Origin: a virus
IMG/VR virus record: IMGVR_UViG_3300048987_000007
Span: 1 to 25,386 of that record
Reading direction: 5' to 3' (one strand)
Length of the DNA stretch: 25,386 nucleotides
In this document: positions 990-4,886 of the stretch, in pieces
Position numbering within the stretch: position 1 is the stretch's first letter
Layout: every line of letters starts with the position of its first letter
Position numbers and translations under genes: made by a program
Notes under the pieces: model-generated
Database searches by the model: none
Told to the model about the DNA's origin: nothing
What the model saw: the letters and a program-made list of their open reading frames with translations, nothing else

Positions 990-1162
990 CCCTTTCGGCG
1001 GCCTTCCTCGACCAGCTGCGCGAGCGGACGGCGTTGTCGGCCCTGATCGGCCGGACGGTCAAGCTGACCAGGGCCGGGCGGGAGCATAAGGGCTGCTGCC
1101 CGTTCCACGCCGAGAAGAGCGCCAGCTTCACGGTGAGCGACGAGAATCGGGGCGTCGTATGA
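986..1162 (+). CDS. Truncated DnaG-type CHC2 zinc-finger fragment
   Basis: Fifty-eight residues closely follow the N-terminus of bacterial DnaG primases (FLDQLRERTALSALIGR, then VKLTRAGREHKGCCPFHAEK, then SFTVSDENRG). The first half of the zinc site is present (Cys38, His41), but the reading frame stops where the second half, normally an HCFGCG-like strand, should follow. A complete CHC2 domain is about 90-100 residues. Start and stop both overlap neighbours by 4 bp (986-989 and 1159-1162), so it is still translated in register with the operon. It may be a remnant left by recombination next to the Prim-Pol gene, or a minimal accessory peptide; a remnant is more likely because zinc could not be fully coordinated. 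Confidence 0.75.
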   Translation: MTLSAAFLDQLRERTALSALIGRTVKLTRAGREHKGCCPFHAEKSASFTVSDENRGVV

Positions 1163-4113
1163 CCCGCGCGAGGGCGCCTTCGGGTGAGCCGTCCCCGATG
1201 CTCGAGGCCGCGCTGGCGTTCGCCGCCCGCGGCTGGCCGGTCTTTCCCTGCAACATGACGAACAAGCAGCCCCTGCTCGCGGCCGCCAAGGACCCCAAGA
1301 CGGGAGCGAAGATCAAGGGGACGGGCGGCGTGTCGCGCGCCTCGCTTCACGGGCAGGAGATCCGCACCTGGTGGAAGCGCTGGCCGATGGCGATGGTCGG
1401 CCTCGCCACCGGCCATGAACGCCTGTTCGTCGTCGATTTCGACCCGCGCCACGATGCCGAGACCGGCGAGGAATGGACGCTGGAGCGGCTCAAGGCCGAG
1501 CTCGAGGCGCAGATCGGCTGCGCGCTGCCGGCGACGCTGGCGGCGCGCACGCCCTCTGGCGGCGTCCACCTCTATTTCCTGTGGCCCGACGACGGCGGGA
1601 CTCCGATCCGGAATCGGGGCAATTTGCCGCTCCACGTCGACGTGCGCGGGGTCGGCGGCTATGTGATCGCGCCGCCGAGCGTGATGGAGGACGGCCGGCG
1701 CTACCGCTGGCTGCACGGCGCCGCCGACGTGGCGATCGCAGAGGCGCCGCCGTCGCTGGTCTCCGAGCTGAGGGCGCCGAAGCGCAAGGAACCCAAGGCC
1801 GTCCCCGCGCCGTCAGGCGAAGACGCCGCGGCCGACCAGGCCGCGTCCGTGCCTTCTTCCTCGTCCCCTGGCGCATCGTTGGGAGGCGGCCAAGGCGACG
1901 ATCCGGTGGCGGCGGCGAAGCGCCGCTATGCGATGAGCGCGCTCGAGCGCGAATGCGAGACGCTCGGCAAGGCGCCGCTGGGAGCGCGCAACAACCAGGC
2001 GAACGCCTCGGGCTTCGTCATCGGCCAGTTGGTTGGCGCCGGCGCCTTGGGCGAGAGCTTCGCGCGAGCCGCGCTCCACCAAGCCTGCGCGGGCTTCAAC
2101 GACCCGGCGAAGAACCAGGAGGCCGTCGACAACGGCCTCGACGCCGGCATGGCAAGCCCGCGCGACCTCAGCGACGTCGAGCAGAATGCGCGACGATGGG
2201 CTGAGCGAGCGCCACCGCGATCGCTCGGCGCCTCTTTATCCCTCCCCGCACCCCAAAAAAACGACCAAGGTAAGCTATCCTCCCATTTGGGAGTTAGTAG
2301 TCGCACAGGCATCAATGAAGGGTCCGGGGAGAGCGAGGGCGAACAGCTGACGCGGCATTGTGCGTTCCGGCCGCTGACCGATCTCGGCAATCTGGAGCGC
2401 TTGCTGGAGCGGTTCGGCCGCGACTTCCTCTATGTCGAGGCATGGGGGTGGCTGGCGTGGGACGGGCGCCGATGGGACCGCGATATGGCCCAGCCGCTGC
2501 TCAGTCGGGCCGCGCAGGCGACCGCGCGCGCGATCCAGGAGGAAGCGGATTTCGTCCGCCGGAGCGGGGTTCCGTTTCCCGACCGCGACGCGCTCAGCCG
2601 GCTGATGTCGGAAGACGGCGACGAATCGACCGACGAACGAAAGGCAAAGATCAAGGCCTGGCACCGCCAGCAGGCTGTGGCGCGGCAGGTGCCCGACCAT
2701 GGCGGCGAGCGACTCGATTCGATCGTGCAGGTCAAGTCGAACGGCGAGATACTGCTCTATTCCGACAAGCTGGCCGCATGGGGGCGGACGTCGGAGAGCT
2801 CGGGCCATATCGGCTGCCTTGGCCGGCCGGACATGGCCGGGGCGCGCTGTTCGGCCCGGACCGAGGATTTCGACACGGATCCGCTGAAGCTCAACGTGCT
2901 GAACGGAACCCTCGTATTTCTCCGCCCCGATGAGGGCTATGGCGCGGCCGTGTCGCGCCGCGAACATCGCCGCGAGGACAGGATGACGAAGCTGGCCGAC
3001 GTCGAGCACGACCCGGCCAGCGCATGCCCCAAGTTCGACGCCTTCCTCGAGCGCGTGCAGCCGGATCCCGATATGCGCAGCTTCCTCGACGTGTGGGCGG
3101 GCTACAACGCGCTCGGCCTCGCCGACGCGCAGAAATTCGCCTTGTTCTACGGCGAGGGATCGAACGGCAAGGGGGTGTGGGTCAACACCGTGGCTGGCGT
3201 TCTTGGCGACTATGCCTGGGCGGCGGGCATCGAGACCTTCATCGACCAAGGGCGCTACAAGAAGGGCTCGGACGCATCGCCCGACCTCGCCGCGCTCGCC
3301 GGGCGGCGCATGGTCTATGCGAACGAGCCGGAAGAAGGGTCGAAATTCTCGGACGGCCTGGTCAAGGCCCTGACCAGCGACGAGCCTAAGGGCGGCGTGC
3401 GCGAGCTGATGAAGGCGCCGTTCGAGCTGCGCATCACCTTCACCAACACGATCATGGCGAACAATCTGCCGAAGATCGGCACCGATCACGGCATCCAGCG
3501 CCGCGTCCAAGTGGTGCCGTGGACGGTGATCATCCCCGATTCCGAGGCCGATTTGCAGCTGAAGGACAAGCTGAAGGTCGAGCGAAGTGGCATCCTCAAC
3601 CGGATGGTCACGGGCGCGCTTTCCTATCTCGATAACGGGCTGCCTAAGCCCTCGGCGATCGTCGAGGCGACGCGCGAATATCAGCAGGAGAACGACCAAC
3701 TCGGTCTGTTCGTCACGCTTTGCGTTGCGCGGGTGCCGGGCGAGAGGGTCGGCGCCCGGCCGTTCCACCGCGTCTTCGCCGCCTGGCAGACGTGGGCGGG
3801 GCTGCTCCCGGCCTCGGGGAAGCCGTGGTCGGAAAAGTATCTCGGCACGAAGCTGAAGCAGCGCGGGTTCGCGAGCGCCAAGTCGAGCACGAATCGATGG
3901 GAGAATGTCGCCCTTCGCTACGAGGCGACCGACTTCTGCGTCCTCGACATGGACGGCAAGATCGTTCGGCCGATCGACGACGACCTGCCGGAGCCGAAGA
4001 CGTTCGCCGGCGAGGCGGCGACAATGGTCGCGCATGGGTTACCGCCCCCTGTCGCCGAGCGTGGCCCCGCACCCCTGGAACATGAGGACGACGATGGAAT
4101 ACCTTGGTCCTGA
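1159..4113 (+). CDS. Prim-Pol / SF3 helicase replication protein (phage primase-helicase)
   Basis: A 984-residue replication protein. Residues about 14-215 form a bifunctional primase-polymerase domain: ALAFAARGWPVFPC, the acidic pair in FVVDFDPRHD, TPSGGVHLYF and VRGVGGYVIAPPS. Residues about 255-345 look like a PriCT-type helical region (RNNQANASGFVIG). A low-complexity linker (about 345-400) is followed by a D5_N-like domain (about 405-630) and a superfamily-3 helicase core with Walker A GEGSNGKG at 665-672 and a Walker B-like ANEPEEG from 721. A D5 C-terminal winged-helix-like domain follows (about 860-950). It should unwind and prime phage DNA at the origin. ATG 1159 overlaps the upstream stop; ATG 1198 is an alternative that starts right at the domain. 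The linker DNA holds an A7 run and a palindrome. Confidence 0.92.
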   Translation: MTRARAPSGEPSPMLEAALAFAARGWPVFPCNMTNKQPLLAAAKDPKTGAKIKGTGGVSRASLHGQEIRTWWKRWPMAMVGLATGHERLFVVDFDPRHDAETGEEWTLERLKAELEAQIGCALPATLAARTPSGGVHLYFLWPDDGGTPIRNRGNLPLHVDVRGVGGYVIAPPSVMEDGRRYRWLHGAADVAIAEAPPSLVSELRAPKRKEPKAVPAPSGEDAAADQAASVPSSSSPGASLGGGQGDDPVAAAKRRYAMSALERECETLGKAPLGARNNQANASGFVIGQLVGAGALGESFARAALHQACAGFNDPAKNQEAVDNGLDAGMASPRDLSDVEQNARRWAERAPPRSLGASLSLPAPQKNDQGKLSSHLGVSSRTGINEGSGESEGEQLTRHCAFRPLTDLGNLERLLERFGRDFLYVEAWGWLAWDGRRWDRDMAQPLLSRAAQATARAIQEEADFVRRSGVPFPDRDALSRLMSEDGDESTDERKAKIKAWHRQQAVARQVPDHGGERLDSIVQVKSNGEILLYSDKLAAWGRTSESSGHIGCLGRPDMAGARCSARTEDFDTDPLKLNVLNGTLVFLRPDEGYGAAVSRREHRREDRMTKLADVEHDPASACPKFDAFLERVQPDPDMRSFLDVWAGYNALGLADAQKFALFYGEGSNGKGVWVNTVAGVLGDYAWAAGIETFIDQGRYKKGSDASPDLAALAGRRMVYANEPEEGSKFSDGLVKALTSDEPKGGVRELMKAPFELRITFTNTIMANNLPKIGTDHGIQRRVQVVPWTVIIPDSEADLQLKDKLKVERSGILNRMVTGALSYLDNGLPKPSAIVEATREYQQENDQLGLFVTLCVARVPGERVGARPFHRVFAAWQTWAGLLPASGKPWSEKYLGTKLKQRGFASAKSSTNRWENVALRYEATDFCVLDMDGKIVRPIDDDLPEPKTFAGEAATMVAHGLPPPVAERGPAPLEHEDDDGIPWS
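2256..2293 (+). other. Slippery A AAA AAC heptamer plus palindrome in primase linker
   Basis: In the primase reading frame the bases 2256-2262 read A AAA AAC, a legal X XXY YYZ slippery heptamer inside a run of seven A. A -1 slip would read CGA CCA AGG and then stop at TAA 2271-2273, giving a 371-residue Prim-Pol protein without the helicase. Seventeen bases downstream lies the 6-bp inverted repeat CTCCCA-TT-TGGGAG (2280-2293). The surrounding 100 bp is clearly less GC-rich than the rest of the gene. The functional reading is speculative; the sequence elements are directly visible. Confidence 0.4.
2277..2293 (+). repeat. TCCTCCCA motif copy inside primase gene
   Basis: ATCCTCCCA at 2277-2285 matches the motif repeated downstream of the same gene at 4113, 4318 and 4331. 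Here it overlaps a 14-bp palindrome with a 2-bp centre (2280-2293). It lies in the poorly conserved linker between the Prim-Pol and D5_N domains, where coding constraint is low. Confidence 0.6.
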
Positions 4114-4202
4114 TCCTCCCAAGCTCCCGCAGACGGGAGGATTGCGATGGCTCGGGAGTGGCGGTTTTCCGCCATTCTGGGAGGATGTGGGAGCTTGGGA
4201 GG
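4113..4202 (+). repeat. Inverted TCCTCCC/GGGAGGA repeat cluster after the primase gene
   Basis: The cluster begins at the primase stop codon. ATCCTCCC (4113-4120) pairs with GGGAGGAT (4135-4142). A longer perfect 14-bp inverted repeat, CCTCCCAAGCTCCC (4115-4128) and GGGAGCTTGGGAGG (4189-4202), encloses it. A further GGGAGGAT lies at 4179-4186, and a small hairpin TGGCGG-TTTT-CCGCCA at 4159-4174 occupies the centre. No U-tract follows, so it is not a standard terminator. The arrangement resembles iterons or operator arrays near a replication gene; function is unknown. Confidence 0.75.
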
Positions 4203-4221
4203 CAAATCGGGGACCATTTCT

Positions 4222-4233
4222 GCATATATATGC
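4222..4233. repeat. AT-rich palindrome GCATATATATGC
   Basis: A perfect 12-bp palindrome in a strongly GC-rich genome, 20 bp after the last inverted TCCTCCC copy. It could be a promoter -10 region, an easily melted segment of an origin, or chance. There is no clear -35 partner. Confidence 0.4.
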
Positions 4234-4317
4234 GCGGGCATGCGCGCGCGATACGGACCTGCTATCTCGCTCCCATCATCCCTGGCAATATGAAAGCCTT
4301 TGATATGACTGAATTCT

Positions 4318-4352
4318 ATCCTCCCAAAGCATCCTCCCAAGACAGGGAGGAC
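4318..4352 (+). promoter_or_regulatory. Tandem TCCTCCC repeats and hairpin covering the ribosome binding site of the 4362 gene
   Basis: ATCCTCCCAAAGC (4318-4330) and ATCCTCCCAAGAC (4331-4343) are near-identical 13-bp direct repeats. The second pairs with the GGGAGGA at 4345-4351 (TCCTCCC 4332-4338, loop AAGACA), a 7-bp stem. That GGGAGG is the only good Shine-Dalgarno candidate for the ATG at 4362, about 11 bases downstream. The hairpin would therefore mask the ribosome binding site, and the first repeat could compete for the same pairing. Translational control is inferred. Confidence 0.5.
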
Positions 4353-4361
4353 GGGACTTTC

Positions 4362-4886
4362 ATGACCTACGATGCCGTCGAGGCGCGGCTTGTCGATGCC
4401 GTGCGGTGGTGGCGGCGGCCGGAGGGGCGCTGGCCCTTCGCCGGCGACGGGCCGTGGCATCTCATCCGCAAGGAATGGTGGGACTGGGATGCGCGGGACC
4501 CGAAGCGGCTTCGCGATGGCGCGCCATCGCCTGCCGAGATCGACCGGATGGAGGAGGCGACCGGTTGGCTCGGATGGCTGGAGGACGACGGGAAGCGTCG
4601 GGCGCTCGTAGCTGGGCTGGTCGATCTCGCCAAGGGGCGTCGCCATCCCGGCTGGTCGGCGATGCGAGAGCGGCTCGGCGAGCCCGGGCTGAGCGGGGCG
4701 GCGGTCCAGTACCGATACAGCCAGGCGATCCGCTTCATCGCCAACGTGCTGAACTTCATGTCGGGCAGCGATTACGCCCCGAAAGGCATGCGCGTGCGCT
4801 ATCCGAAGGCGGTCGTAGCGCAGGTCGAGCGTCTGAGAATGGCGAAAAACTGCGGTCGTAGGCCGTCAAGCCCCGTAATGGAATGA
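4362..4886 (+). CDS. DUF6362-like phage protein
   Basis: A 174-residue protein. The middle contains PSPAEIDRMEEATGWLGWL, and the rest has the shape I associate with the phage DUF6362 family: an N-terminal helix (MTYDAVEARLVDAVRWWRR), a WP..G...WHLIRKEWWDWD segment, the EIDRM motif, and a C-terminal helix-turn-helix-like part (GWSAMRERLGEPGLSGAAVQYRYSQA). Its position between replication and terminase genes is typical. The biochemical role is unknown; DNA binding is plausible. ATG 4362 is chosen because GGGAGG precedes it; an in-frame ATG at 4290 has no ribosome binding site and would read through the repeat block. Confidence 0.65.
   Translation: MTYDAVEARLVDAVRWWRRPEGRWPFAGDGPWHLIRKEWWDWDARDPKRLRDGAPSPAEIDRMEEATGWLGWLEDDGKRRALVAGLVDLAKGRRHPGWSAMRERLGEPGLSGAAVQYRYSQAIRFIANVLNFMSGSDYAPKGMRVRYPKAVVAQVERLRMAKNCGRRPSSPVME

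Follow-up and report, generated by a model that had tools for sequence, protein, structure and literature searches.

Opposed GGGAG repeats behind a viral primase-helicase gene as probable iterons of a replication origin

Introduction

What role do short repeats play when they crowd around a viral replication gene and run into the coding sequence on either side? The question is raised by a 25,386-nucleotide stretch of viral DNA (positions 1 to 25,386 of IMG/VR record IMGVR_UViG_3300048987_000007; hereafter the window), a 25.4-kb record with 68% GC that is a piece of a virus contig and that carries TCCTCCC/GGGAGGA repeats in and after its primase-helicase gene. A sequence-only reading of this DNA had likened the repeats to iterons or a multi-site operator. 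Our comparative analysis indicates that they are most probably the iterons of a replication origin belonging to the upstream primase-helicase, laid out like the origins of Staphylococcus aureus pathogenicity islands (SaPIs) and phage-inducible chromosomal islands (PICIs).

Results

We located seven exact copies of TCCTCCC/GGGAGGA in the window, at 2278, 4114, 4135 (minus), 4179 (minus), 4319, 4332 and 4345 (minus). The sequence-only reading had claimed eight; its copy at 4195 reads GGGAGGC and retains the GGGAG core only (4197-4201). The heptamer shows no over-representation in the window as a whole (7 versus 5.65 +/- 2.6 in shuffles), and the octamer ATCCTCCC occurs six times against 1.42 expected (none of 100 shuffles reaches six), with all six copies at the places reported earlier and none spread over the rest of the record. 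The true repeat unit is the pentamer GGGAG. Across the window CTCCC/GGGAG is depleted (55 against 93 expected), and 11 of these 55 pentamers are packed into the 239 bp from 4113 to 4351, for which 0.42 would be expected (Poisson probability 1.2e-12; 0 of 2000 random placements), in agreement with the clustering around the replication gene proposed before.

These pentamers form two GGGAG sets opposed across a 68-bp spacer (Table 1). Their order is CTCCC-N3-CTCCC-N6-GGGAG, GGGAG-N5-GGGAG-N3-GGGAG, the spacer, one CTCCC, and then two CTCCC and one GGGAG within codons of the DUF6362 gene. The inverted pair of 14 bp described earlier is indeed perfect (CCTCCCAAGCTCCC at 4115-4128, GGGAGCTTGGGAGG at 4189-4202), and the 13-bp tandem was likewise found, at 4318/4331. 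The statement that no gene explains the repeats does not hold: the first copy (4113) overlaps the primase stop codon (TGATCCTCCC), as it does in relatives, and the last three (4318-4351) are N-terminal codons of DUF6362 if that gene starts at ATG 4305. The pentamer unit, the bipartite array around a spacer and the overlap with two genes all go beyond the earlier description. Within the spacer, 29 bases lie in alternating purine-pyrimidine runs of at least 8, a value that none of 200 random windows attained.

Table 1. Positions in the window of the repeat array and of the genes and domain associated with it.
Feature	Position	Strand	Details
Primase-helicase gene (proposed initiator)	1159..4113	+	984 aa; Prim-Pol, linker, D5_N/SF3-type helicase, C-terminal winged helix (predicted); Pfam PF09250, PF08706; phrog_1156
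Linker iteron pair	2277..2293		ATCCTCCC-ATTT-GGGAG; core palindrome 2280-2293
C-terminal domain, coding part; proposed iteron reader	3601..4110	+	Winged helix roughly 3691-4017; AlphaFold2
Left iteron block, outer part	4113..4142		CTCCC 4116 and 4124, GGGAG 4135; ATCCTCCC-N14-GGGAGGAT; order and spacing (N3, N6) common to most relatives
Extra GGGAG pentamer	4154..4158		From pentamer count
Perfect small palindrome among iterons	4159..4174		TGGCGGTTTTCCGCCA; many relatives have similar TTTTC-loop palindromes
Left iteron array, inner part	4179..4201		GGGAG 4179, 4189, 4197 (gaps N5, N3); GGGAG-N5-GGGAG-N3-GGGAG recurs within the family and beyond
Spacer, proposed melting/priming site	4202..4269		57% GC vs window 68%
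Alternating purine-pyrimidine runs	4221..4250		TGCATATATATGCGCG (4221-4236), GCATGCGCGCGCG (4238-4250)
First pentamer of right (opposed) array	4270..4274		CTCCC-N3-CTCCC in many relatives
Right iteron array	4318..4351		CTCCC 4321 and 4334, GGGAG 4345; in DUF6362 codons; in most relatives, array in N-terminal codons
DUF6362 gene	4305..4886	+	PF19889 and phrog_6836 matches; ATG 4305 start inferred from relatives (MTEFYPPK...)

The array is conserved among relatives of the window. It lies directly 3' of the primase gene in all 29 related loci first recovered (viral contigs; 50-61% amino acid identity over the best segment), and at the same place in further viral contigs and in 15 prophage loci, whose titles name Sphingomonas or Sphingobium (Sphingomonadaceae) in nearly every case and Microvirga in one. 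The sequence-only reading had named an even spread of the octamer over the genome, or its absence from relatives, as counting against its proposal; the octamer is neither spread over the record nor absent from relatives. Searches of phage records at the DNA level (blastn) and with the DUF6362 protein (tblastn) returned no match. As a separate observation, the entire left iteron block is tandemly duplicated behind the primase in four loci (L013, L016, L018, L025), together with a remnant of the primase end.

The copy previously placed in the primase linker is an exact heptamer at 2278, where it forms part of a pair of opposed pentamers. The arrangement CTCCC-N4-GGGAG is present in the linker of 22 of the 23 related primase genes read, a strong conservation, although these rows include near-duplicates and do not amount to 22 independent events. 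The Gly codon of the pair is always GGA (8.5% of Gly codons) and the second Ser codon is always TCC, a codon usage suggestive of constraint at the DNA level in addition to the protein level.

The same layout recurs behind distant helicases. Two phages of lower GC (L071 and L068), with distant helicases (34% identity), carry GGGAG arrays at the same place; in L071 a separate Toprim/zinc primase gene adjoins the helicase gene. Further GGGAG arrays occur in phages of Synechococcus, Lacticaseibacillus, Aurantimonas and Pseudanabaena. We also scanned IMG/VR for opposed GGGAG arrays using no gene criterion, which returned 80 loci. In 43 of them, 12 of which are contigs already seen, a primase-helicase ends less than 1 kb away, at 10-480 bp and mostly at 10-110 bp. 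A few of the others adjoin VapE-like or phrog_10537 helicases missed by the profile, and some adjoin genes of unrelated function, a tail gene for instance. A scan for GAGGG, the mirror motif, which had been intended as a control, returned 32 loci, 19 of them behind a primase-helicase; GAGGG is therefore another iteron class and not a null, and since it marks primase-linked arrays itself it gives no clean chance number for the scan hits. In a further locus (L137:6863-9300), a GGGAG array follows a protein that has a RepA-like AAA_25 domain but lacks a D5_N match; given this case, the layout may extend beyond D5-type helicases.

In a test that presupposes no motif, we took 30 primase-helicases of phages, viral contigs and plasmids, chosen mainly by protein similarity, and asked whether the hexamer repeated most often within 500 bp downstream of each gene exceeded dinucleotide shuffles (p <= 0.03). 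This was so behind 18 of the 30 genes; when a stretch within the gene itself was examined, the count was 2 of 30. Other iteron words include GGGACG (RcapNL), GGGCCT (Pthi1), GGCACA (Curiosium) and GTGACG (L070); GTTAC in phi105 and GTGACG in Acinetobacter phage 4316 can be made out by eye, but neither is significant in this test. An excess of alternating purine-pyrimidine sequence was found in 41 of 54 spacers, including 17 of 23 outside the sphingophage family, and is weaker or absent in several of the other iteron classes.

Several lines of evidence connect the repeat word to the helicase. In one locus (L235), a DUF6362 relative (39%) is kept next to a different D5 helicase, and the intergenic repeats read GACGGA/TCCGTC. 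Because the iteron is exchanged along with the helicase although DUF6362 is retained, the repeats track the primase-helicase and not DUF6362; conversely, L071 has a GGGAG array and no DUF6362 match next door. Among 49 helicases, at equal similarity of the helicase domain, C-termini are more alike when the iteron word is shared (0.33 versus 0.14 in the 0.50-0.65 bin), a difference attained in 2 of 1000 permutations that were not corrected for ancestry.

The C-terminal domain of the window protein is predicted by AlphaFold2 to be a winged helix (mean predicted local distance difference test score 80). The best matches of this model among solved structures are the C-terminus of African swine fever virus PrimPol (Z 9.1) and the RFX DNA-binding domain (Z 7.3); its match to the P4 origin-binding domain 1ka8 (Z 6.8, root-mean-square deviation 3.0, 80 residues) falls below the tool's clear level of Z 8. 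In one related primase (L028:2971-6168), whose origin array is still of the GGGAG kind, an FtsK gamma domain is inserted at residues 223-282. FtsK gamma is a winged helix that in FtsK reads the GGG-rich KOPS (FtsK-orienting polar sequences) sites, and this domain is possibly a second iteron reader in L028; we rejected it as the general reader, only 1 of 22 records having the domain.

The gene order in the window is primase-helicase, DUF6362 gene and GpA-type terminase module. The terminase genes, which follow within 1-1.6 kb, comprise one for a GpA-type large terminase of full length and one for a small terminase. A PICI satellite identity, with helper-dependent virion genes, was rejected given these large and small terminase genes of its own. 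Directly before the Prim-Pol gene, a short open frame (986-1162) encodes a truncated CHC2 zinc finger of the DnaG type (58 aa, E 1.6e-15), which may be either a remnant or a small zinc-finger protein, and further upstream a frame at 135-989 matches a Mom-like DNA modification protein (phrog_1384, E 5e-28). In the window primase and those closely related to it, the Walker A motif, around residues 664-672, reads GxGxNGKG, with Gly in place of the Ser of nearly all other helicases compared.

Discussion

Clustering, a bipartite opposed layout, conservation, DNA-level constraint in primase codons and linkage between repeat word and helicase were all observed at this locus or in the other loci compared. 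Of the two options raised by the sequence-only reading, that of iterons is the one favored by conservation, recurrence behind distant helicases, word-helicase linkage and the predicted winged helix. Judging from layout, linkage and predicted fold, the C-terminal winged helix of the primase-helicase would bind GGGAG pentamers in double-stranded DNA, and the facing arrays (left 4116-4201, right 4270-4351) would load two opposed helicase rings. These rings would melt the 68-bp spacer, within which the Prim-Pol domain would prime. The linker pair would act as a remote iteron, perhaps as a second start or a control site.

A number of results weigh against an origin of this kind. No primase was detected near 37 of the 80 scan loci, some of which are chance or unrelated occurrences, and 12 of the 30 primase-helicases in the motif-free test lack a significant repeat behind the gene, among them those of RpAliso, RR1-A, Ascela, Thermaerobacter and the Streptomyces and Bradyrhizobium plasmids. 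The switch of repeat word in L235 is a single locus, shared ancestry may contribute to the C-terminus comparison, and nearest-neighbour classing of iterons by domain gave no clear result. Furthermore, the spacer, at 57% GC against 68% for the window, is not plainly AT-rich, a feature that is clearer in the GAGGG class, and a GC-skew turn was looked for at the array site and none was found.

Other explanations fit worse as the main role of the repeats. If the DUF6362 protein or another phage DNA-binding protein occupied them as a multi-site operator, they could control a switch from replication to packaging and late genes. Clustered opposed sites agree with such a role, as do their position ahead of the packaging genes, their overlap with the first DUF6362 codons and a promoter-like minus-strand site at 4313-4340, which overlaps the right array (one found against 0.2 expected). 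However, GGGAG arrays also stand behind helicases with no DUF6362 match next door, L235 keeps DUF6362 with different repeats, and the mixed spacings (N3 to N7) and the copy 1.8 kb upstream in the primase fit iterons better, so that we consider an operator unlikely as the main role, though it may be a second function. The proximity of the terminase genes would also be consistent with cosB-like sites at which the arrays help the GpA-type terminase to find and cut its packaging site, and in RcapNL the annotated cohesive end comes just after the primase and its iterons and is flanked by iteron-like copies; at individual loci such as this one, the arrays may have a cos role. Yet the array of RcCronus, a phage with defined ends and a 13-base overhang (PMC8601537), is about 1.35 kb and two genes from the record end, those of phi105 and Curiosium are about 5 kb and 14 kb from theirs (assuming that record ends are virion ends), and the repeat word follows the helicase, all of which renders a general packaging function improbable.

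A structured RNA or single strand, in which a hairpin made of the 14-bp stem and adjacent sequence acts as regulatory RNA, attenuator or stem-loop origin, could account for the strand at 4100-4215 folding far better than shuffles (z -6.3), and such hairpins could sequester GGGAGGA ahead of downstream starts. There is also precedent in pRN1, whose origin is a stem-loop behind the PrimPol-SF3-winged-helix gene of ORF904 (PMC4234260). In the relatives, nonetheless, it is the pentamers that are conserved rather than the stem, because the linkers between pentamers pair at 30 of 84 positions against 24.4 +/- 2.4 when shuffled. In addition, 4215-4385 folds no better than shuffles, the array has no intrinsic terminator and an Rfam search gave no match at gathering score; we therefore regard this explanation as highly improbable. 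As for a chance or low-complexity cluster in GC-rich DNA, the whole-window heptamer count does equal the shuffle level, but the significance of the pentamer clustering and the fixed rare codons at the linker site leave it with a negligible probability, and conservation of the array in relatives already refutes it.

With iterons of an origin as the preferred reading, a broader model can be outlined, which we put forward as speculative and would not presently expect to hold in full. Phages with D5/SF3-type primase-helicases might have, as their standard origin, opposed arrays around an alternating purine-pyrimidine tract. This tract would be a second module, a Z-DNA-prone melting/priming site common to elements with different iterons and handled by the conserved helicase/primase part, and iteron words would switch with the C-terminal winged helix, setting the compatibility of co-resident phages and satellites. 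If the reading as an iteron origin holds, two facing sets of short repeats right behind a primase-helicase would predict origins in many temperate phages and phage-plasmids, phages, PICIs and the staphylococcal cassette chromosome mec (SCCmec) would share one origin design, and iteron word and C-terminal winged helix would be related by a testable recognition code. In the literature found, no such origin has been described for phages with this primase class.

Known systems share parts of this arrangement. Like the P4 alpha protein, whose C-terminal winged helix binds iterons, the window protein is a primase-helicase with a C-terminal winged helix, here predicted. The P4 iteron sequence is GGTGAACAG, and P4 has two separate cis regions (ori, crr). 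Whereas alpha has a bacterial-type (Toprim) primase (PMC4234260), the window primase is a Prim-Pol (PF09250) with no Toprim-type domain. In pRN1 ORF904 and phage BIP-1, a PrimPol, an SF3 helicase and a C-terminal winged helix are likewise combined with a cis element just 3' of the gene; that element is, however, a stem-loop described as iteron-free (PMC4234260), in contrast with the window, where pentamers and not pairing are kept. In SCCmec, the C-terminal domain of the D5-type helicase Cch2 was found experimentally to bind pentamer iterons downstream of its gene (PMC7581432). The window shares with the cch2 origin a D5_N-type helicase and pentamer iterons directly downstream, but cch2 has AAGTG iterons in three copies, no opposed arrays described and a separate polymerase-primase pair.

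PICI/SaPI origins established experimentally (e.g. SaPIbov1, EcCICFT073) lie directly 3' of rep and always comprise two iteron sets around an AT-rich region, a layout that has been called unique to PICIs (PMC6092414). The window differs from these elements in representing a lineage of tailed phages that has packaging genes of its own and is no satellite, in a spacer that is only relatively AT-rich and contains alternating purine-pyrimidine runs, and in iterons that also lie within the primase gene and the next gene. In common with them, its array is placed immediately 3' of the gene for the proposed primase/helicase initiator, and two sets of short iterons, whose words vary between elements, flank a spacer.

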